Shown in pieces: positions 44,857 to 53,839 of a DNA stretch of 64,000 bases. The translations under genes and the position numbers were made by a program. Under the pieces are notes generated by a model. That model saw only the letters and a program-made list of their open reading frames with translations. It was not told the DNA's origin and made no database searches. Source of the DNA: Pseudomonas fulva 12-X (GTDB lineage Bacteria; Pseudomonadota; Gammaproteobacteria; Pseudomonadales; Pseudomonadaceae); NCBI RefSeq assembly GCF_000213805.1, contig NC_015556.1:1922001-1986000 (forward strand), read 5' to 3'. The first letter of the stretch is position 1, and each line of letters starts with the position of its first letter.

Positions 44857-47235
44857 ATGAGTAACCTTGATCAAGACAAGGCCAGCCTGCTGGAGCGCCT
44901 GATCTTCAACAACCGACCGGCAGTGATCCTGATCTGCCTGCTGGTCAGCCTCTTCCTGTTCTTCCAGGCCACCCAGGTGCGCCCCTCGACCAGCTTCGAG
45001 AAGATGATCCCGCTGAGCCATCCGTTCATCCAGAACATGATGGAGCACCGCAACGACCTGGCGAACCTCGGCAATACCGTGCGTATTTCCGTGGAGGCCA
45101 AGGACGGCGACATCTTCAGCAAGTCCTACATGGAAACCCTGCGCCAGATCCACGACGAGGTGTTCTACATCCCGGGCGTCGAGCGCTCCGGGCTGAAGTC
45201 GTTGTGGAGCCCCAGCGTGCGCTGGACCGAGGTGACCGAGGAAGGCTTCGCCGGTGGCGAGGTGATTCCGCAAACCTACGACGGCAGCGCGCAGAGCCTC
45301 GAAGAGCTGCGCGGCAATGTGCTCAAGTCCGGGCAGATCGGCCGCCTGGTGGCCAACAACTTCAAGTCCAGCATCATCGACGTGCCGCTGCTCGAGTCCT
45401 ACCCGGACCCAGAGGACCAGGGCCGCCTGATCAAGCTCGACTACCAGCAGTTCTCCCACCAGCTCGAAGAGAAGATCCGCAACAAGTACCAGGTGCAGAA
45501 CCCGGACGTGCAGATCCACATCATCGGTTTCGCCAAGAAGGTCGGTGACCTGATCGACGGCCTGGTGATGGTCGCGCTGTTCTTCGGCGTGGCGCTGCTG
45601 GTCACCTTCGTGCTGCTGTACTGGTTCACCTGGTGCATCCGCAGCACCATCGCCGTGCTGATCACCACCCTGGTGGCGGTGGGCTGGCAGCTGGGCCTGA
45701 TGCACACGGTGGGCTTCGGGCTCGATCCGTATTCGATGCTGGTGCCGTTTTTGATCTTTGCCATCGGCATTTCCCATGGCGTGCAGAAGATCAACGGCAT
45801 CGCCCTGCAATCCGGTGGCTGCGACAACTCGCTGACCGCCGCGCGGCTGACCTTCCGCCAACTGTTCCTGCCGGGGATGATCGCCATCCTCGCCGACGCC
45901 GTGGGCTTCATCACCCTGCTGCTGATCGATATCGGCGTGATCCGCGAGCTGGCCATCGGCGCCTCCATCGGTGTGGCGGTCATCGTGTTCACCAACCTGA
46001 TCCTGCTGCCGGTGGCGATTTCCTATATCGGCATCAGCAAGAAGGCGGTGGAGCGCAGCAAGCGCGATGCGGTCAGCGAACATCCGTTCTGGCGCCGCCT
46101 GTCAAACTTCGCCAGTGGCCGTGTGGCACCAATCTCCGTGAGCCTGGCGCTGATCGCCGCGGTCGGCGGCTTCTGGTACCAGCACCAGCACCTGCAGGTC
46201 GGCGACCTCGACCAGGGCGCGCCGGAGCTGCGCCCGGACTCGCGCTACAACCTGGATAACGACTTCGTGATCCGCAACTACTCCACCAGCTCCGACGTGC
46301 TGGTGGTGATGGTCAAGACCGCGCCCGAAGGCTGCTCGACCTACGAGGCCATGGCGGCCATGGACGAGCTGATGTGGACCATGGACAACACGCCGGGCGT
46401 GCAGTCGGCGATCTCCATGGTCAGCGTGTCGCGCCAGGTGATCAAGGGCATGAACGAGGGCAACCTGAAGTGGGAAACCCTGTCGCGCAACCCGGATGTA
46501 CTCAACAACTCTATCGCCCGTGCCGATGGCCTGTATAACGGCGACTGCTCGGTAGCGCCGGTGCTGGTGTTCCTCGAAGACCACAAAGCGGAAACGCTCA
46601 AGCGTGCGGTGAGGGCGGTCGAAGGTTTCGTCGCCGAGCATCAGTCCGAGAACGTGCAGTTCCTGCTGGCCGCCGGTAACGCCGGCATCGAGGCGGCCAC
46701 CAACGAAGTGATCAGCACATCGGAGCTGCTGATTCTGGTGCTGGTCTACCTGTGCGTTGGCATCATGTGCATGATCACCTTCCGCTCCTTCGCCGCCACC
46801 GTGTGCATCGTGCTGCCGCTGATCCTTACCTCGATCCTCGGCAACGCCCTGATGGCCTTCCTGGGCATCGGCGTGAAGGTCGCGACCCTGCCGGTGATCG
46901 CCCTGGGCGTCGGCATCGGCGTGGACTACGGCATCTACATCTACAGCCGCCTGGAAACCTTCCTGCGCGCCGGCCTGCCGCTGCAGGAAGCCTACTACCA
47001 GACCCTGCGCTCGACCGGTAAAGCCGTGCTGTTCACCGGCCTGTGCCTGGCCATCGGCGTGGCGACCTGGATGTTCTCGGCGATCAAATTCCAGGCCGAT
47101 ATGGGCCTGATGCTGACCTTCATGTTCATCGTCAACATGTTCGGCGCACTGTGGCTGCTACCGGCCCTGGCCCACTACTTGATCAAGCCCGAGAAACTGG
47201 CGGGCAAGAAAGGTGGTTCGCTGCTGGCGCACTGA
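44857..47235 (+). CDS. RND/MMPL family transporter
   Basis: 792-aa inner-membrane protein with two repeats, each one TM helix, a large periplasmic loop and a bundle of about five TM helices, as in MMPL/HpnN exporters. The sterol-sensing-domain-like segment LGVGIGVDYGIYIYSR (about 685-700) carries the conserved Asp. It is likely to export lipids or other hydrophobic compounds, together with the upstream three proteins. Last gene of the operon; a strong terminator follows 21 bases after the stop. Confidence 0.85.
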   Translation: MSNLDQDKASLLERLIFNNRPAVILICLLVSLFLFFQATQVRPSTSFEKMIPLSHPFIQNMMEHRNDLANLGNTVRISVEAKDGDIFSKSYMETLRQIHDEVFYIPGVERSGLKSLWSPSVRWTEVTEEGFAGGEVIPQTYDGSAQSLEELRGNVLKSGQIGRLVANNFKSSIIDVPLLESYPDPEDQGRLIKLDYQQFSHQLEEKIRNKYQVQNPDVQIHIIGFAKKVGDLIDGLVMVALFFGVALLVTFVLLYWFTWCIRSTIAVLITTLVAVGWQLGLMHTVGFGLDPYSMLVPFLIFAIGISHGVQKINGIALQSGGCDNSLTAARLTFRQLFLPGMIAILADAVGFITLLLIDIGVIRELAIGASIGVAVIVFTNLILLPVAISYIGISKKAVERSKRDAVSEHPFWRRLSNFASGRVAPISVSLALIAAVGGFWYQHQHLQVGDLDQGAPELRPDSRYNLDNDFVIRNYSTSSDVLVVMVKTAPEGCSTYEAMAAMDELMWTMDNTPGVQSAISMVSVSRQVIKGMNEGNLKWETLSRNPDVLNNSIARADGLYNGDCSVAPVLVFLEDHKAETLKRAVRAVEGFVAEHQSENVQFLLAAGNAGIEAATNEVISTSELLILVLVYLCVGIMCMITFRSFAATVCIVLPLILTSILGNALMAFLGIGVKVATLPVIALGVGIGVDYGIYIYSRLETFLRAGLPLQEAYYQTLRSTGKAVLFTGLCLAIGVATWMFSAIKFQADMGLMLTFMFIVNMFGALWLLPALAHYLIKPEKLAGKKGGSLLAH

Positions 47236-47256
47236 CGGGTTGGCTCGGTAAAGGCG

Positions 47257-47294
47257 CGCCCTCTACGGCATTTACATGCCGTAGAGGGCGTTTT
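47257..47294 (+). terminator. terminator of the RND operon
   Basis: CGCCCTCTACGGCAT (47257-47271) and ATGCCGTAGAGGGCG (47276-47290) form a perfect 15-bp stem with loop TTAC, followed by TTTT. It isolates the operon from the cassette array. Confidence 0.88.
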
Positions 47295-47498
47295 GCTACT
47301 GCGCGCAAAGTAGGACTGATTTTTATAGGGCAGTGATGGTTGTGAAGGTGCGGAATTCAGGCGAATACGGTGGGCATCTCGCTGTAGCTTGATAAACTGC
47401 TGATTGATATGGAATTTAAATTTTGCGGACACGTGTGTGGGGCACGCTTATACAGAACGCTTTACTATTGCGTTAACGCAGAGTTCTGTCTAATCACT

Positions 47499-47505
47499 GT
47501 TAGGC
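47499..47505 (+). other. left boundary recombination core of the cassette array (attI-like or half attC)
   Basis: GTTAGGC matches the GTTRRRY core of integron recombination sites and lies six bases before the first cassette gene. No partner GCCTAAC box is found upstream back to the RND terminator, so it is either an attI-type site that has lost its integrase or the right half of a truncated attC. The 200 bases before it are non-coding. Confidence 0.55.
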
Positions 47506-47510
47506 TAAAA

Positions 47511-47897
47511 ATGAGTCTCGAGATTAACCTTGAAGCCGATGAGCGACTTTTAATAACCACTGTCTCTACGACATTGAGCGAACTCAGCGCACTGGATACA
47601 GACAATGACGACCATACGGTGGAAGGAATTTTCGAGTCCGGATTATCAGTGAGCGCCGCATGCGAACTAAATGACCATACGCTATACGCAGAAGACACTA
47701 AAGACATGAACTTCCCTGTGGCCATTCGCTGTTACATGCGAATAAAAGGGCCGGAGCCAGAAGGTTTTTCTGCACTTGGTGATTTAGAGCGTTTTGTAAA
47801 ACTCCTTACAGCCAAAACCGATGCTAATTTTGTGGTTTCATTCCAGTACGAATCAACGTTGTATTGGAGAAATAGTGATGGTTTGCAGACTGCCTAA
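47511..47897 (+). CDS. cassette gene 1, hypothetical (128 aa)
   Basis: ATG 47511, just inside the left cassette boundary, encodes a soluble acidic 128-aa protein without recognised motifs. The stop codon lies within the GCCTAAC box of attC1, a normal cassette arrangement. The open frame can be extended to 47409, but this would cross the recombination core. Base composition is clearly lower in GC than the flanking genes, consistent with transfer. Confidence 0.7.
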   Translation: MSLEINLEADERLLITTVSTTLSELSALDTDNDDHTVEGIFESGLSVSAACELNDHTLYAEDTKDMNFPVAIRCYMRIKGPEPEGFSALGDLERFVKLLTAKTDANFVVSFQYESTLYWRNSDGLQTA

Positions 47898-47967
47898 CTA
47901 GCGGATCAAAACGTTCGCTTCGCTCACAGGGACGGGCTAAAGCCCGCCCCTTAACCAAACGTTAGGC
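47892..47967. repeat. attC site 1
   Basis: GCCTAAC (47892-47898) and GTTAGGC (47961-47967) are exact complements at the ends of a 76-base imperfect palindrome. Inside are TTCGCTTCGCTC, the hairpin GGGCTAAAGCCC and TTAACCAAACG before the right core, matching Pseudomonas-type attC sites. Confidence 0.88.
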
Positions 47968-47977
47968 AAGCAGAGAA

Positions 47978-48439
47978 ATGGAAAACGCATTAATATTTTT
48001 AGAGAATTATTGGCTCGAAGCTATTGGCCTGATTGCGTCGCTGTTTGGGATATATGAGTTTATAAAAATAAGAGCAAGCAAGAAAAGAATTCCGGCTTAC
48101 AGCGGGGCTCTTGATGAGAATTTTGCCAAATTCGTCTACAAAAATGAAAGCTCTGTGTTTCTTCTTGAGGCGTTCCTTGATGAAGAGAAAAGCAGGGAGC
48201 TAGCGAATTGGATACAGGAAAATAATTCAGAGCAGACTATTTGGTTTGGCGTCGCTCATGACGAATCTGGAACTGAGTTTGGCTTTTTCAAAGACGACCC
48301 TGAAATCCACTGGAATACTCGTTTTTGGGACAGTATTCATACAAAAGGCTATTTCAAAGTTCATAGCATACAAGGCCCTTATCAAGGCTGGATGTCGGTC
48401 ACTTTGAGAGGGGTTGGCAAGGAACATATAAATGCCTAA
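47978..48439 (+). CDS. cassette gene 2, hypothetical membrane-anchored protein (153 aa)
   Basis: N-terminal hydrophobic helix (about 12-31, YWLEAIGLIASLFGIYEFI) followed by a soluble domain rich in aromatic and acidic residues (EIHWNTRFWDSI, GPYQGWMSVTLRG). It begins 10 bases after the attC1 right core and ends in the left box of attC2. It is AT-rich. I do not recognise a family. Confidence 0.7.
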   Translation: MENALIFLENYWLEAIGLIASLFGIYEFIKIRASKKRIPAYSGALDENFAKFVYKNESSVFLLEAFLDEEKSRELANWIQENNSEQTIWFGVAHDESGTEFGFFKDDPEIHWNTRFWDSIHTKGYFKVHSIQGPYQGWMSVTLRGVGKEHINA

Positions 48440-48571
48440 CAAGTGGTTCAAATCGGAAAAGGCGATAGATTTATTTATGGCACAGTGCTGTTGGTCTAAA
48501 ATAAATCTGTCCCCTTATCGTCGGTCCCTTTATCGTCTTGTCCCTTACCGTCTTTTAACCAAACGTTAGGC
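48434..48571. repeat. attC site 2 (long, 138 bp)
   Basis: GCCTAAC (48434-48440), AAGTGGTTCAAATCG and TTAACCAAACGTTAGGC (48555-48571) are the same arms as in the other sites. TGGTTCAA pairs with TTAACCA leaving the extra C expected as an extrahelical base. The loop region is enlarged and contains its own inverted repeat, GATTTATTT-type (48466-) against AAATAAATC (48499-). Confidence 0.85.
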
Positions 48572-48578
48572 ATTCATA

Positions 48579-48944
48579 ATGGAAGAATCACCATTCCGGG
48601 AAGTGTGGATCGAGATCCCGGACGGCCAGTCCATGTGCGCACTTATCAACGGTGAGTGGGGATGGTTGATGTACCTAAGGTATAACGGGGACGCGGGCTT
48701 TAGCTCACGCAGCACTAATTATAAAGGGCCGACAGAATCAACTATTGAATATCGGCTTAATAATGGTCAGCACGACGAGTACCCAGCATCGTGGGCTTAC
48801 CCTGTTGATGTAATTGAGCGCGCACTGCATTTTTTCCAAGCGCAGCAAACGCCACCCGCGTTTATTCATTGGCACAATGATTCAGAAGATGGCGTTGAAT
48901 TGGAATACAAAAAGCTAACAGCCAACTATAACTATATAGCCTGA
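48579..48944 (+). CDS. cassette gene 3, Imm1-like immunity protein
   Basis: 121-aa protein beginning MEESPFREVWIEI. It resembles the Imm1 immunity family by layout: a GWLMYLRY strand, a YRLNNGQHDEYP segment, then VIERALHFFQAQQTPPAFIHW with an acidic tail. Imm1 proteins neutralise secreted polymorphic or CDI toxins. No toxin gene is next to it, so it may be an orphan immunity gene carried as a cassette. The family call is by eye. It ends within attC3. Confidence 0.55.
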   Translation: MEESPFREVWIEIPDGQSMCALINGEWGWLMYLRYNGDAGFSSRSTNYKGPTESTIEYRLNNGQHDEYPASWAYPVDVIERALHFFQAQQTPPAFIHWHNDSEDGVELEYKKLTANYNYIA

Positions 48945-49013
48945 CAAGTGGTTCAAATCGTTCGCTTCTTTCAAGGGACGGGCTAAATCCCGCCCTTTAA
49001 CCAAACGTTAGGG
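48939..49013. repeat. attC site 3
   Basis: GCCTGAC (48939-48945, one base from RYYYAAC), AAGTGGTTCAAATCG, hairpin GGGCTAAATCCC, and TTAACCAAACGTTAGGG ending 49013 (GTTAGGG instead of GTTAGGC). It is 75 bases long and slightly degenerate at both outer boxes. Confidence 0.82.
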
Positions 49014-49021
49014 TAATGCTC

Positions 49022-49228
49022 ATGACCCTTGATTGCCCAAGGTGTCAGCAAGGACACATAAGGCCAATGCGCATCATAAGTACGCAAGAATTAATTTGGG
49101 TTTGTGAAGAATGCGAAGCAAGCTGGGTAAGTCAAAACGCCATTAGTAAAAATAGTTTTGAGGACTACGGAACAGTAATGGAATCAAAGGGGCTAAAGCC
49201 TCTTTGGTCTGAACTGGAGCCACAATAA
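49022..49228 (+). CDS. cassette gene 4, small zinc-ribbon-like protein (68 aa)
   Basis: Short protein with CPRC near the N-terminus and CEEC about 20 residues later (WVCEECEASW), a two-pair pattern typical of small zinc ribbons. ATG 49022 is used; ATG 49016 gives two more residues. It starts 8 bases after attC3. The function is unknown. Confidence 0.65.
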   Translation: MTLDCPRCQQGHIRPMRIISTQELIWVCEECEASWVSQNAISKNSFEDYGTVMESKGLKPLWSELEPQ

Positions 49229-49241
49229 CAAGTAGCGCTTT

Positions 49242-49310
49242 ACCTCTAACAAGTCGCTCACTTCGTTCGCTGAGACGGACTAAAGCCCGCCTTGTAATCA
49301 AACATTAGGT
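49242..49310. repeat. attC site 4 (degenerate)
   Basis: Left box ACCTCTAAC (ending 49250), AAGTCGCTCACTTCGTTCGC, hairpin GGACTAAAGCCCGCC and right arm AATCAAACATTAGGT ending 49310. The right core reads ATTAGGT, so the invariant first G of GTT is lost and the site may be inactive. Confidence 0.65.
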
Positions 49311-49320
49311 GAAATGATAA

Positions 49321-49674
49321 ATGGCTGTCGGATACGAACTCGTAAATTTCACTCGTCGCGAGGTGCTCACATTCACGCACATACCGGCGTCCACGAAATT
49401 AGAGCTTGCAGGCAATGCTGTAGCAGCAGCGATGAGCACCTGGTTCATGCTGGAATATGCAGGCGATCAGATGGCATTTGTGTCGGACACTTACGGAGAA
49501 TGGCCATTTCCCGGCGGAAGCTCGTCTGATGTTGCGTCCTATGTGGACGTTACCGATCGAGTAGTAGCTGAGTTGGTCGGTGCCGGTATTCTCAAAGATC
49601 TTGGGCGGAAGTACTACTCCGATGACCTGACCGAATATACGAGAGTCTTAGAGAATGTCTGGTTGCAGAGCTAA
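49321..49674 (+). CDS. cassette gene 5, hypothetical (117 aa)
   Basis: Soluble 117-aa protein starting MAVGYELVNFTRREV, with a GEWPFPGGSSSDVASYVDVTDRV-like middle and C-terminal helices. No family is recognised. It starts 11 bases after attC4. The region after its stop (49675-49728) contains ATCTAAC (49681-49687) and AATTCGTCCAAG, the left half of a different attC type, without a right half. Confidence 0.65.
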   Translation: MAVGYELVNFTRREVLTFTHIPASTKLELAGNAVAAAMSTWFMLEYAGDQMAFVSDTYGEWPFPGGSSSDVASYVDVTDRVVAELVGAGILKDLGRKYYSDDLTEYTRVLENVWLQS

Positions 49675-49680
49675 CACCCC

Positions 49681-49728
49681 ATCTAACAATTCGTCCAAGT
49701 CCTGTTCTCGATTAAATTCAACGAAGTC
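49681..49728. repeat. truncated attC-like left half between cassettes 5 and 6
   Basis: ATCTAAC followed by AATTCGTCCAAGTCC fits the left arm of a non-Pseudomonas attC type. No GTTRRRY core follows before the next ATG at 49729, so only half of a site remains. Confidence 0.4.
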
Positions 49729-49989
49729 ATGCCAAACATATTTGACTCAGCTGACATAAAAGAAACCCACAAATATTCCATTCGGCACCGCGGCGAGCTC
49801 AAAAATAGCGAGACCTGTGGCTGCTTTTATTGTCTTGATATTTTTGACTACAAAAACATCGAAGACTGGATCGGTGATGGAGATACTGCTTTATGCCCCA
49901 GTTGCGGAATTGATTCGGTAATTGGGTCTGTTTCTGGCTTTCAGATTAACCGCGAATTTCTTTCTGCCATGAAGAAACATTGGTTCTAG
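49729..49989 (+). CDS. cassette gene 6, small CxxC protein (86 aa)
   Basis: 86-aa cytoplasmic protein with CGCFYC and CPSC (about residues 30-35 and 62-65), probably a zinc ribbon. It resembles a family of small bacterial cytoplasmic proteins of unknown function that I recall from enterobacteria. It is the last gene of the array and ends before attC5. Confidence 0.65.
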   Translation: MPNIFDSADIKETHKYSIRHRGELKNSETCGCFYCLDIFDYKNIEDWIGDGDTALCPSCGIDSVIGSVSGFQINREFLSAMKKHWF

Positions 49990-50004
49990 CTATGGCGCAA
50001 AGCG

Positions 50005-50077
50005 AGCAATTGGCTCCAAATCGTTCGCTTCCCTCGCTGGGACGGGCTAAAGCCCGCCTTTTAACCAAACGTTATGT
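50005..50077. repeat. attC site 5 (degenerate left arm), right end of the array
   Basis: TTGGCTCCAAATCGTTCGCT, hairpin GGGCTAAAGCCC (50043-50054) and TTAACCAAACGTTATGT ending 50077. The right core is GTTATGT. No clear RYYYAAC left box pairs with it. Chromosomal single-copy DNA (terminator and lysE) follows. Confidence 0.7.
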
Positions 50078-50105
50078 GGACCCATTGAGATGATCGGTAA
50101 ATGGA

Positions 50106-50128
50106 AAACCGCGGCCTAGCCGCGGTTT
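50106..50128. terminator. hairpin terminator at the array/lysE boundary
   Basis: AAACCGCGGC (50106-50115) and GCCGCGGTTT (50119-50128) with loop CTA, flanked by A and T residues. It could end transcription coming from the cassettes. Confidence 0.7.
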
Positions 50129-50215
50129 CCGTTTCAGAGCATGCAAATTTTCTTCAATACGCCCGAACTGGTGCTGCGTAACGTGCCTCACTCGATCAGC
50201 AGTGAGGTAGGCGTG

Positions 50216-50806
50216 ATGATGAGTTTGTATTTGTCCATGGCAGCGTTCGCGCTGGCCGCTTCCATTTCTCCCGGGCCGGTCAATCTGGTGTCGCTGAGCG
50301 CGGGGGCTCGCCATGGCTTGCGGGTGGCGATGCGGCATGTTGCTGGGGCGACCCTGGGCTTTACGTTGCTGCTGGTGCTGATCGGCCTGGGGCTGCATCA
50401 GTTGCTGGTGCTGTTGCCCTGGTTGACGGCGGCGATCCAGTGGGCTGGCGTGGCCTTTCTGCTGTATCTGGCCTGGCGCTTGGCTATCGATAACGGCGCG
50501 TTGCACAGCACTGAAGGTGGGGCGGTTGCGTCCTTTGCTGGCGGTGCGCTGATGCAGTGGCTTAACCCCAAGGCGTGGTTGGCAGCGATTGCCGGCACGG
50601 GTGCCTTTGCCGCCGATGGTGATGCGGGGCGGGTTTGGTTGTTTGCGGCAATCTACTGCGTGGTCTGTTATTTGTCGCTGGCTTGCTGGGCTATCGCCGG
50701 GACTTGTTTGCAGCCTTACCTGCAGGCGCCGCAGCGGGTGAGGGTTTTCAATCGGGTGCTGGCGGGGTTGCTGGTGGTTAGTGCGGGGTATTTGGTGTTG
50801 GCGTAA
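50216..50806 (+). CDS. LysE family translocator
   Basis: 196-aa inner-membrane exporter of the LysE/RhtB group: about six hydrophobic helices, the N-terminal ASISPGPVNLVSLSAGARHG signature and the mid-protein NPKAWLA motif. It probably exports an amino acid or derivative. ATG 50216 is chosen with GAGG (50204-50207) 8 bases upstream; ATG 50219 or a longer form from 50141 are alternatives. The AraC gene downstream on the other strand may be its regulator. Confidence 0.85.
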   Translation: MMSLYLSMAAFALAASISPGPVNLVSLSAGARHGLRVAMRHVAGATLGFTLLLVLIGLGLHQLLVLLPWLTAAIQWAGVAFLLYLAWRLAIDNGALHSTEGGAVASFAGGALMQWLNPKAWLAAIAGTGAFAADGDAGRVWLFAAIYCVVCYLSLACWAIAGTCLQPYLQAPQRVRVFNRVLAGLLVVSAGYLVLA

Positions 50807-50814
50807 GCCAGTTA

Positions 50815-51229
50815 AAGACTGTTCACGATCTCTATGTTCGTGAAGCTGCAACTACAAGGCGGAAACGGACTTTCACCCGTGGGAGAGGCTTTAGCCTCGA
50901 GTTTTTTATTCAGGCAAACAAAGAGCTCGGGGCTAAAGCCCCTCCCACGAGATCGCGAACAGTACGGTAGGGCGTACTCGCGAAGCAGTACGCCGTTGCG
51001 GCGGTGTCAGGATCGACATGAATTGGCGGACTGTTCGCTTCGCTCCTGAGTCCGCCCTACGAGCTGAGCGCGCAAACAACTCGGTAATTCTGGTGGAGTC
51101 ATTGTGGGCCCCAGCCCATGACCGTGATTTTTCGCGGGCATGGCCCGCTCCCACAGTGAGAGCGCGCGCGTCCGCTGCGACCACTTAACGGCGGCCAAGA
51201 TCGACGAACCTGAGCTGAAAGATTATTAG
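50815..51229. repeat. composite REP/MITE-like repeat, copy 3, rearranged
   Basis: Starts with AAAGACTGTTCACGATCTCT and ends with AATATTCTAAG-like GAGCTGAAAGATTATTAGG, corresponding to the ends of copies 1 and 2. It contains two inverted REPs around GTGGGAGAGGCTTTAGCCTC (50880-50899) and GGCTAAAGCCCCTCCCAC (50932-50949), another hairpin at 51026-51057, and an inverted REP core at 51131-51155. It fills most of the 562-base lysE/araC spacer (50807-51368). Confidence 0.65.
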
Positions 51230-51254
51230 GCGGACCCTAAAGCGCCACAGAGCC

Positions 51255-51338
51255 GTAGCCCGTGGTTGAGCGTAGCGATACCCGGGGCACCTTCGCGCGA
51301 GTGATTCCTGGGTATCGCTGCGCTTAACGCCAGGCTAC
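51255..51338. repeat. long dispersed hairpin
   Basis: GTAGCCCGTGGTTGAGCG continuing to 51283 pairs imperfectly with 51310-51338 (GGGTATCGCTGCGCTTAAC onward). Arms are about 29 bases and the loop 26. It lies between repeat copy 3 and the end of the araC gene and may also act as its terminator. Confidence 0.6.
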
Positions 51339-51368
51339 CGGCCTGGGTCAGGCTACGGGTGGTCGTCG

Positions 51369-52187
51369 TTAGCCGCGGTATTGGCCGGGGGTGGCGGCGA
51401 GGAGTTGTTTGAAGGTGCGCTGGAAGTGTGCCTGGTCGGCGAAGCCGGCTTCTTGGGCGACTTCGGCCAGGGCTGCGCCGCTTTTCAGGCGCGCGTGGGC
51501 GAACTGGATGCGGCGGTTGAGCAGGTAGGCGTGGGGCGTCAGGCCATAGCGTTGTTTGAAGCCGCGGATCAATTGCGACGGAGACAGTTGCGCCGCTTCG
51601 CACAGGGTATCGAGACGTAGCGGCTCGCCGCAGTGCTGCTCGATCAGCTCGGCGGCCAGTTCCAGGCGCGGGTTCAGGCTGTCGTCACGCTCGCCTTCAA
51701 GTACCAGCCGCTGCAACGCCAGGCTGAAGAATGCTTCGGCTTGGGTGCGCTTCTCGGCGGTGCTGGCCGATGGATCGAGCAGGCTGCGCCGCAATGCCAG
51801 CAGGCCCTGGTACAGCTCGGCATCGTCGCTGGCGATGGAGGCGAAGCGCTGGAAAGCGGGTGTGTCGGTAAAGCCCCGGGCATGCTGCAGCTCGCCCAGC
51901 CACTGCGGGTCGACGTAGCACATCAGATATGACCAGGGCTCGCCGTCGATGGGGTTGCAGGCGTGCACATCGCCGGGGTTCATCAGCACCACAGTGCCCT
52001 GGCTCACCTGACGATCCACCTCGCGGTTGCTGTAGGTGCTTTGGCCGCTGGTGATCGCGCCGATGGAAAAGAACGCGTGGCTGTGCCGTCCGTAGCAGAC
52101 CTGGCGGCCATCCTCGATGGAGCGCAGCTCGATAAAGGGCAGGGCGGCGTCGCGCCAGAACTGGGGGCAAGCGGGGCGAGCGTCCAT
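51369..52187 (-). CDS. AraC family regulator with cupin N-terminal domain
   Basis: 272-aa regulator: cupin-like sensor domain (about 20-110, HSHAFFSIGAITSG and VLMNPGDVHACNP) and C-terminal AraC DNA-binding pair (about 175-270, LCEAAQLSPSQLIRGFKQRYG and EVAQEAGFADQAHFQRTFKQ). Such proteins commonly stand next to LysE exporters and regulate them. Its ATG (52187) is only 11 bases after the batD stop, so it may be partly cotranscribed with the bat operon. Confidence 0.88.
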   Translation of the reverse strand: MDARPACPQFWRDAALPFIELRSIEDGRQVCYGRHSHAFFSIGAITSGQSTYSNREVDRQVSQGTVVLMNPGDVHACNPIDGEPWSYLMCYVDPQWLGELQHARGFTDTPAFQRFASIASDDAELYQGLLALRRSLLDPSASTAEKRTQAEAFFSLALQRLVLEGERDDSLNPRLELAAELIEQHCGEPLRLDTLCEAAQLSPSQLIRGFKQRYGLTPHAYLLNRRIQFAHARLKSGAALAEVAQEAGFADQAHFQRTFKQLLAATPGQYRG

Positions 52188-52198
52188 GCAGTCTCCGT

Positions 52199-53839
52199 TC
52201 AGCGCGGGTAGAGCGGCGGCAGCTGGCCGCCGTCCTGGCCGTTGTCCTGGGTTTTCTCCGCCGCCGGCAGTTCGCCGATAGCCTGCCACAACTGCTTGCC
52301 TTGCCAATGCTGGCCGGCTTCGCTGTACAGCGCGCCGTTGAGGCCGTCCAGCGCGTCGGACAGCGGCGCGAAGCGCGCGGCCATGTCGGCAAGGGTTTCC
52401 GGTTGCTGGCGCGCCCAGGCGTCGAGGGCCTGGCGGGTGGCCTGGCTGTCGTTGGCCAGGCAGGCGCGCTTGAGGTCGTCGAGCAGGGTGCGCGGGCTGG
52501 GCCCGACTTGTGCGCTGCGCTGCACGGCCGGCTGGCTGCGCGCGTGCCACCAGAGGCCGAAGCCGAGCAGGGTGGTCAGCGCCAGCAGCACGGTGCTCAG
52601 CTGCCAGGGCCACAGCAATACGTCGCTGGCGTCGCTCTCGCGCGGGCGGGTTTCCACCGGTTGCTCGACGCTCAGTGCCGGGTCGGCGGCCACTTTCAGA
52701 GTGCGCGCCGGCAAACTGCTGTGCTCCAGGCGATCCTCGTGGGTGTTCCACCACACCAGGTCCACCGCCGGCAGCTCCAGATTGCCGGCCTTGCTGGCGA
52801 CCAGCGCCTCGCGCTCTTCACGGCTACCGATCACACCGCGGTCGCTGCTCTCGTTGGTCAGCTGCGGCTGATCGGGGTAGCGGCGCAGACCTTCCACCTC
52901 GGTGGCCGGCAATGGCGGCAGCTGGGCGCTGGACAGCCCGTCGGCCTTGAGCATCAGGCTGCGGGTCAGCGAATCACCGACCTTGATTTCGCCCGGCTCC
53001 GGGCTCCAGGCTTCGGCCAGGCTCAGGGCGCGGGCCGGCAGCCAGGGCGCATCGGCCGGGTAGTCGGCGGGCTTGGCCTTGACCGTCAGCGGGATCTCCG
53101 GGGAGCGCACGCGGGTGACCTTGCCCGGGCGCGGGCCGAACGGCGTGTAGCCGTTGCGGCTGCTGCGGTCGGCCAGGGTGGCGCTGAACACCTGGCTGGG
53201 GATGGTCAGCTGGCCGCTCTTCTGCGGGAAGATGGCGTAGCGCAGCTCGATCACGCCGTGGCGCACGCCGCCGATGTCCTGCTCGTAAGTGCGTGGCTCG
53301 CCGAGGGATTCGACCCGCGCATCGGGGATTTCCAGCTGGGTGAGGCTGCTGTCGTCGTACAGCGACACCGAGTGGTAGATGCGCAGGGTCAGCACGCTCT
53401 GCGCCTGCACGTAGACGCTCTCGTGATCCAGGCTGGCGTCGATGAAGATCGGCGCCATCTGCTCGTCGCTGTTCTGGCTGGTGGCCTCTACCACATGCAG
53501 GCTGACCGGTTGGCTCTGGGCGTCGCCCAGGCGCAGCGGCGGAATCACCACGAAGCCGCTGTGGCGCGGTTTGAGGGTGACGATCCAGCGGGTGCTGGCG
53601 CGCGCCTGGCCTTCCAGGCTGGTCAGGCGGTTGACCTGGCGTGTACCGAGCACATCGAACAGCTCGTTGAGTGGCGTGAGGTCGGGTTTGCCGAATTCGG
53701 TGGCGTCCGTGGATTCGAGGGTCAGGTCGAGGCTTTCGCCCAGGTTCAGCCGGCTGCGGTCGACGCTGGCGGTAAAGTCTTGCGCGCTGGCCTGCCATGC
53801 CAGCAAACAGAAGAGCAGGGTGCAGAGCAGGCGGGTCAT
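52199..53839 (-). CDS. batD: BatD-like protein
   Basis: 546-aa exported and membrane-anchored protein: signal peptide (WQASA|QDF), a long periplasmic beta-rich region of about 380 aa, one TM helix (about 415-435, LLWPWQLSTVLLALTTLLGFG) and a helical cytoplasmic tail. BatD proteins accompany MoxR/VWA systems and are linked to envelope-stress tolerance. Last gene of the MoxR - Bat operon. It overlaps batB/C by 4 bases. Confidence 0.85.
   Translation of the reverse strand: MTRLLCTLLFCLLAWQASAQDFTASVDRSRLNLGESLDLTLESTDATEFGKPDLTPLNELFDVLGTRQVNRLTSLEGQARASTRWIVTLKPRHSGFVVIPPLRLGDAQSQPVSLHVVEATSQNSDEQMAPIFIDASLDHESVYVQAQSVLTLRIYHSVSLYDDSSLTQLEIPDARVESLGEPRTYEQDIGGVRHGVIELRYAIFPQKSGQLTIPSQVFSATLADRSSRNGYTPFGPRPGKVTRVRSPEIPLTVKAKPADYPADAPWLPARALSLAEAWSPEPGEIKVGDSLTRSLMLKADGLSSAQLPPLPATEVEGLRRYPDQPQLTNESSDRGVIGSREEREALVASKAGNLELPAVDLVWWNTHEDRLEHSSLPARTLKVAADPALSVEQPVETRPRESDASDVLLWPWQLSTVLLALTTLLGFGLWWHARSQPAVQRSAQVGPSPRTLLDDLKRACLANDSQATRQALDAWARQQPETLADMAARFAPLSDALDGLNGALYSEAGQHWQGKQLWQAIGELPAAEKTQDNGQDGGQLPPLYPR

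Follow-up and report, generated by a model that had tools for sequence, protein, structure and literature searches.

An integrase-free cassette array in Pseudomonas fulva 12-X is headed by an attI site and a conserved integron platform

Results

Positions 47499-50077 of the DNA analysed here, a 64,000-nucleotide stretch (the window) covering 1.92-1.99 Mb of the single-contig 4.92-Mb genome of Pseudomonas fulva 12-X, are an integron cassette array without an integrase, which by its attC content belongs to the clusters of attC sites lacking integron integrases (CALINs). A real attI with its upstream platform heads the array, which sets it apart from a mere grouping of attC sites and had been missed in the preliminary description of this DNA. 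We put at roughly 75% the probability that a dispersed attI platform was loaded here in trans by an integrase encoded elsewhere, and that this integrase has since been lost from the genome.

Judged by homology, the left edge of the array is a bona fide attI with an integron platform of approximately 190 bp, homologous to attI regions linked to integron integrase genes (intI) in other Pseudomonas. With the 217 bases that precede the first cassette (47290-47506) as query, a match was found in 18 of 398 genomes of the genus, several of the matches adjoining integron integrase genes, and blastn alignment to such intI-linked regions delimits an intI-attI spacer with its attI, but without intI, at 47319..47505 on the plus strand. 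For example, the platform aligns with the region beside intI in genome G082 (L164) over 190 columns at 68% identity, starting about 50 bp from the intI match, with G164 (L165) at 72.7% identity over 110 positions, and with the intI-linked attI of strain G34 (L158) at 91% identity over 56 bp. The attI core itself lies at 47442..47505 (plus strand; E 1.6e-17 with model R2, which includes the window attI), and its end, TCTAATCACTGTTA, is shared by intI-linked sites and by sites without intI; the crossover is expected between G47499 and T47500.

The distribution of such sites was surveyed with a sequence-only attI model built from 23 sites, both linked and orphan, which was run on 398 genomes and matched in 38, and with an integrase model, which matched in 48 of 398 genomes drawn alike at E 1e-40. 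The survey is confined to attI of the window type, the genus having a second intI family with an attI of its own. Once opposite-strand shadows of near-palindromic attI sites had been dropped, together with six weak matches (E 9e-6 to 6e-4, in G242, G264, G344, G096, contig C52 of G082, and G216) that accounted for five of the 38 genomes, 70 attI sites in 33 genomes were kept, 12 of them within 700 bp of an integrase match (a partial gene in two cases, G064 and contig C22 of G177) and 58 not. Four of the 58 unlinked sites carry an intI 5' remnant, and the remaining 54, found in 32 genomes, have no intI match by tblastn in the 2 kb upstream; we refer to these 54 as orphans. The full 2 kb was available for every orphan, and 14 single-contig genomes account for 23 of the orphans; therefore, contig ends do not explain the missing integrase genes. 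Two or more orphans occur in 14 genomes, with a maximum of five in G113, which has no integrase match and in which two attI sites (L223 and L252) lie 1.6 kb apart in the same orientation. Elsewhere in the genome, 15 of the 32 orphan-bearing genomes have a full-length integrase match, two have a partial one and 15 have none (E 1e-40), and ten of the 15 genomes with a full-length match have an integrase of the 404-417-bit kind found beside window-type attI. In G008, a stop-free intI stands beside an attI (L278) that is cut after 39 of 63 model positions and followed by unrelated sequence, and the same genome has four orphan attI sites elsewhere, three of them with attC. The P. fulva genome holds two further attI-headed arrays without intI. 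One, at approximately 527 kb (L272), has a window-type attI (E 3.7e-8) with attC downstream and is orthologous to sites in four other genomes. The other, at approximately 3.071 Mb (L170, 7219-9260), contains three attC sites, and its left end is 85% identical over 68 bp to another attI type, found beside the broken home integrases of relatives.

Upstream of attI, the platform retains an ordered set of motifs. A block resembling GGAAGTCAAGCGAATACG, with 2 mismatches, lies at 47352..47369 (plus strand), 153 nt before the attI end, and blocks of this kind usually stand 147-159 nt upstream of the attI end, the exceptions being sites with a cut attI and L270, where the distance is 254. With up to five mismatches, the block was found at 12/12 linked and 52/58 unlinked attI sites (best control, 6 mismatches). 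Reading it as the cassette promoter (Pc) or as the -35 element of the intI promoter was considered; since orphans that lack intI retain the block, it probably belongs to the platform. Between the block and the attI core lies an IHF-like motif, placed by eye at 47393..47405 (plus strand) with 1 mismatch to what we take to be the IHF consensus. At the same tolerance of one mismatch, this motif is present at 12/12 linked and 46/58 unlinked sites, and in each of two control stretches at 0/12 linked and 1/58 unlinked sites. In class 1 integrons, IHF sites have been reported close to intI1 and to Pc (PMC8876359); the motif may have a role in attI recombination here. Further upstream than both motifs is the position that the LexA box (CTGT-N8-ACAG) occupies in intI-linked sites, corresponding by eye to a decayed box at 47316..47331 in the window. 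A perfect LexA box was found at 11/12 linked sites, at 3/58 unlinked sites, at 1/54 orphans and at 1/70 control stretches. The LexA box is thus lost in the orphans while the module is kept, and therefore the integrase promoter decays while the docking module persists.

The orphan sites also bear traces of cassette insertion. An attC recognised by the model lies downstream on the right strand at 11/12 linked and 39/58 unlinked attI sites (37/54 orphans), none of the 70 attI sites having one upstream or on the other strand; a separate search of the attI stretches with covariance model R1 gave 157 matches. A cassette enters as a circle, so its R'' box should agree with the R' box with which that cassette begins and not with the one that opens the following cassette. 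Among testable cassettes (both cores recognisable, 150-1500 bp; a few are counted twice, as L223 and L252 overlap), 102 of 129 match their own start, against a mean of 12.4 and a maximum of 25 in shuffles, and of 112 informative cassettes, in which the two candidate starts differ, 88 match their own 5' end and 2 the following one. In arrays of unlinked attI sites, 42 of 56 cassettes match their own start and seven the next, and the first cassette behind the orphans matches its own end in 13 of 17 testable cases. With cassettes matching their own ends in this way, the joints between orphan attI and cassette look as if made by site-specific recombination. In the window, the R''/R' boxes with their GTT core, compared by eye, are exact for cassettes 1 and 2, differ by one mismatch for cassettes 3 and 4, and are degenerate at the last site.

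Positions are conserved and cargo is not. The orphan attI sites include seven clusters that share a position between species (8, 6, 5, 4, 3, 2 and 2 sites) with flanks 85-95% identical, and 0 of the 64 pairs within these clusters match immediately downstream of attI, a match being similarity that spans at least 200 bp and starts no more than 400 bp from attI; the cluster of linked sites likewise gave no first-cassette match. In the largest orphan cluster, the shared right flank starts at varying distances from attI, so arrays of varying length lie within the same flanks. The window array is flanked on its left by an MMPL/RND gene (44857-47235) and on its right by a lysE-type gene (50141-50806). 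The RND protein is 97% identical to that of P. straminea and 94-96% identical to those of P. argentinensis, P. punonensis, P. daroniae, P. seleniipraecipitans and P. flavescens, which places the source genome in the P. straminea group. The attI segment is found behind the RND gene in six of nine named relatives (P. straminea, strain URMO17WK12:I2, P. argentinensis, G34, P. punonensis and P. seleniipraecipitans), each with different content behind it, and is absent in P. daroniae, P. flavescens and UBA2684; the contig of P. punonensis stops short of lysE, and in P. daroniae and UBA2684 a search near the RND gene found no lysE. Among the six survey genomes with the RND platform, 0/15 pairs have a first cassette in common, so that the same six genes do not recur across relatives, a recurrence that would have spoken against an integron. 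The RND-operon terminator that had been proposed as the left boundary of the array is missing in the three empty relatives, and the left edge is formed by the attI and not by a terminator alone. A hairpin at 50107..50127 follows the array in the window and comes directly after the RND gene in the empty loci (L041, L043 and L044). Cassettes are, moreover, common to home and orphan arrays: cassette 1 resembles a cassette of the P. argentinensis home array (90% DNA identity over 366 bp), and a 203-bp stretch at cassette 4 shares 88% identity with the URMO17WK12:I2 home array.

These home arrays belong to a different locus, with conserved flanks, at which relatives carry their integrase and whose flanks P. 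fulva 12-X retains without the integrase. No match over the cut-off of the integron integrase family TIGR02249 was found anywhere in the genome, so that no intI stands beside an array as it does in a complete integron, and none of the five weak matches falls inside the 64 kb, in which the preliminary description had likewise seen no tyrosine recombinase. That an intI is hidden in the genome was considered and rejected: the two best matches are XerD and XerC, which score over their own cut-offs. The fifth (L005, 22 bits) lies in a 443-aa open reading frame (ORF) outside the window; a tblastn search of the whole window for intI fragments gave a best E of 0.57. Of the nine named relatives, five have a home-integrase match at E 1e-30, the exceptions being P. 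straminea, P. punonensis, P. flavescens and UBA2684. The home intI of G34 is intact (its open frame encodes 321 aa and scores 404.8 bits with TIGR02249, whose cut-off is 265), and those of P. argentinensis, P. seleniipraecipitans, P. daroniae and URMO17WK12:I2 contain stop codons or are partial. An association of inactivated integrases with lost LexA control is known (PMC3108266). Two integron types occupy the home locus of these close relatives (L158 versus L159-L162), and the intI region of G34 can be aligned to other Pseudomonas integrons but not to the ones that its neighbours carry at the same locus.

The attC sites were recognised with an independent hidden Markov model (HMM) built from 16 attC sites of relatives, the four window sites of alignment A2 being excluded, and with model R1, which includes window sites; both searches concern one attC type. 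All sites lie on the plus strand. The HMM finds attC1 (47892..47967, E 7.5e-23), attC3 (48939..49013, E 3.4e-18), attC4 (49244..49310, E 7e-13, one left box lost) and attC5, the last site (50001..50077, E 2.5e-19, outer boxes degenerate), to which R1 gives 98, 83, 66 and 83 bits, respectively. In attC2 (48434..48571), the outer boxes are kept and the HMM finds the two ends only (E approximately 0.06 each), the centre (48456-48549) having been replaced by another palindrome. Thus, the cassette layout without integrase that had been read from the sequence is borne out by the attC models and by the lack of intI in the genome, and four of the five attC sites proposed then stand in full, the fifth by its ends. 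The GGGCTAAAGCCC hairpins ascribed to these sites hold in part, since attC3 and attC4 carry one-base variants and the attC2 centre is a different palindrome. Four sites and the ends of a fifth amount to more than the two neighbouring attC sites that define a CALIN. Against dinucleotide shuffles, the bottom-strand folds of attC1 to attC5 have z scores of -3.1, -3.7, -1.7, 0.2 and -1.0. A possible relic attC in the gap between genes 5 and 6 (49681..49732, plus strand) scores a non-significant 9.8 bits with R1 (E 0.74). A scan of 45000-53000 against Rfam returned no attC family, the attC sites having no match at E up to 1, and gave only three chance microRNA matches on a repeat near 50.9 kb.

The palindrome type that replaces the attC2 centre at 48456-48549, GGGGACAGATTTATTT, recurs in arrays of relatives (L036 at 13491 and 15044; L038 at 13706, 14519 and 14966; L040 at 13981), and the strict GGGGACAGATTTATTT pattern, which the window copy fails, has a single copy in the whole P. 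fulva genome. A long inverted repeat after lysE (50877-50950), which we take to be of the repetitive extragenic palindromic (REP) kind, has the same core, GGGCTAAAGCCC, as the attC centres, and a link between REP-like repeats and the present attC type is possible. The window is matched by 79 plasmid records, including 25 from Pseudomonas, 24 from Escherichia, 13 from Klebsiella and 11 from Shigella; among the 20 of 79 listed, 7-8% of the window is covered, in three pieces, a pattern that related attC sites would presumably produce. Cassette arrays also contain a repeated element that reaches approximately 1.4 kb (L039, 14190-14967; L037, L160, L172, L218, L222 and L237), and its ORFs in L039 look like what we take to be an IS110-family transposase.

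The six small plus-strand genes of the preliminary description are present as ORFs between 47511 and 49989. Cassette 1 (47511..47897) encodes 128 aa of unassigned function, with 29 homologues, the named ones from Pseudomonas or Pseudomonadaceae and one from Xanthomonas. Cassettes 2 (47978..48439, 153 aa) and 5 (49321..49674, 117 aa) match no family in Pfam, NCBIfam or PADLOC. Cassette 3 (48579..48944, 121 aa) belongs to the Imm1 immunity protein family (PF14430, E 1.4e-8, 36 bits, cut-off 22.4), and cassette 4 (49022..49228, 68 aa) shows a zinc-ribbon-like trace below cut-off. Cassette 6 (49729..49989, 86 aa) is a member of a widespread small-protein family with 199 homologues, several phyla being represented among the 120 listed, and matches phrog_30788 (E 1.5e-30), a PHROG without assigned function. 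Apart from cassettes 3 and 6, no cassette matched a family over cut-off in Pfam, NCBIfam, PADLOC or PHROGs, and PADLOC, NCBIfam and PHROGs assigned a function to none of the products. A search for a cassette promoter in 47200-50200 gave no forward sigma-70-like site and three on the reverse strand, below the shuffle mean of 4.2.

Discussion

From the attI homology, the absence of intI, the footprints of insertion, the differing first cassettes and the cassettes common to home and orphan arrays, we infer that an integrase acted in trans on this platform. The preliminary description had left the choice between a remnant of a chromosomal integron and an array filled in trans; the evidence favours past loading in trans followed by loss of the integrase, with loss of intI in place as a possible alternative. 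The integrase would have been made at a home locus elsewhere in the cell, under SOS control if the promoters of the home integrases of relatives are a guide, and, acting in trans, it would have inserted circular cassettes by recombining attI with attC at G47499/T47500. Loss of the integrase from the genome would then have left a frozen array with decaying attC sites, which agrees with the changes seen in attC2, the degeneration of attC4 and attC5 and the lack of a site between genes 5 and 6. The platform itself may have originated by loss of intI in place or as a copied left end of an integron. That attI-headed arrays without integrase occur at many sites in related species suggests that one integrase can serve several docking sites at a distance.

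Several points weigh against this explanation. Recombination at orphan attI sites is known solely through footprints left in the DNA sequence, the sites behind the attI model had themselves been found with the window attI, which favours similar sites, and, one genome per species having been searched, the comparisons are between species. No model attC was found behind 19 of the 58 unlinked attI sites in stretches of up to 5 kb, several of them shorter, and these attI sites may be empty or dead. The folds of attC3 to attC5 are not convincingly better than those of shuffled sequences, whereas those of attC1 and attC2 clearly are. Two of the 15 full-length integrase matches in orphan-bearing genomes (G063 and G082) contain a stop codon, five of the 15 genomes have an integrase of the other family only, and cassettes in genomes without a matching intI may have no cognate integrase. 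One cassette is common to the RND platforms of URMO17WK12:I2 (L037) and P. argentinensis (L038), at different ranks. Four unlinked attI sites retain 29-72 codons of the intI 5' end, L172 retains about 39, and three sites counted among the 54 orphans (L222, L224 and L252) have flanks in common with intI-linked sites and could once have been home sites; because of these fragments and shared flanks, loss of intI in place accounts for at least some platforms.

The four unlinked sites with intI fragments and the three with shared flanks would fit a history in which a complete integron once stood at the window locus, intI was deleted in place in the ancestor of the clade and species came to differ only through piecemeal loss of an old, longer array, and so would the upstream homology reaching to about 50 bp from the G082 intI start and the decayed LexA region of the window platform. 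We consider this history unlikely, however: no intI fragment was found at the window locus, first cassettes match neither at the RND locus nor in any orphan cluster while the joints between attI and cassette are precise, and the several orphan attI sites of some genomes, five in G113, would each need a former complete integron. The cassettes might also have been inserted at an attG, one of the consensus targets that are neither attC nor attI, so that an integrase elsewhere would have built the array off-target at a chance site without any attI. Off-target insertion has been put forward as one source of CALINs (PMC8618304), but a 63-bp attI with its upstream block is present and kept between species; because of this attI, we reject a purely off-target array as very improbable. 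That there is no integron here, and that ordinary small genes merely lie between REP-like hairpins, a notion suggested by the inverted repeat after lysE with its related core, is scarcely credible given the attC model matches, the attI, the R''/R' boxes matching within cassettes and the cassettes common to home arrays.

A broader proposal is that Pseudomonas integrons are multi-platform systems, in which one SOS-controlled integrase serves several attI modules that are dispersed and inherited vertically (an upstream block, an IHF-like site and attI at fixed spacing), each gathering cassettes of its own behind a different chromosomal gene, the module staying under selection after the loss of intI and of the LexA box, and many CALINs being orphan platforms as opposed to debris. 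To us, the odds that this broader proposal is right seem even. Were many integrase-free arrays headed by attI and loaded in trans, counts of intI would underestimate the gene-capture sites of a genome, the picture of the integron with one attI in cis would be incomplete, and the conserved positions of integrase-free arrays would be simply explained.

CALINs are a known kind of element, defined as at least two attC sites with no intI nearby (PMC9024848), and the window array shares this organisation but differs in having an attI and a conserved upstream module. The same source describes attI sites outside class 1 as poorly described and undetected by IntegronFinder 2.0 (PMC9024848). We found no description of orphan attI platforms among the open-licence PMC papers listed, a search that is weak evidence of absence; the CALIN is familiar, and the attI at its head, like the orphan attI family, was not found described. 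In Xanthomonas, CALINs lie at seven distinct loci whose conserved positions have been taken as a sign of ancestral integron activity, and attG positions are described as broadly distributed (PMC12444791). The likeness to the present case lies in integrase-free arrays at several loci conserved across species, with intI at one home locus; unlike in the window array, no attI was found described at these loci (PMC12444791). Insertion at attG resembles the present arrangement in that cassettes lie away from intI, and differs from it in that the target is neither attC nor attI. Compared with a complete integron, the window array has the attI at its head without intI and without an intact LexA box, both of which stand beside attI in the home integron of G34. 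Together with the sedentary chromosomal integrons of Pseudomonas, of which G34 is an example, the window array nevertheless has the same type of attC, an attI that is 91% identical over 56 bp, and cassettes that also reside in the home arrays of its relatives.

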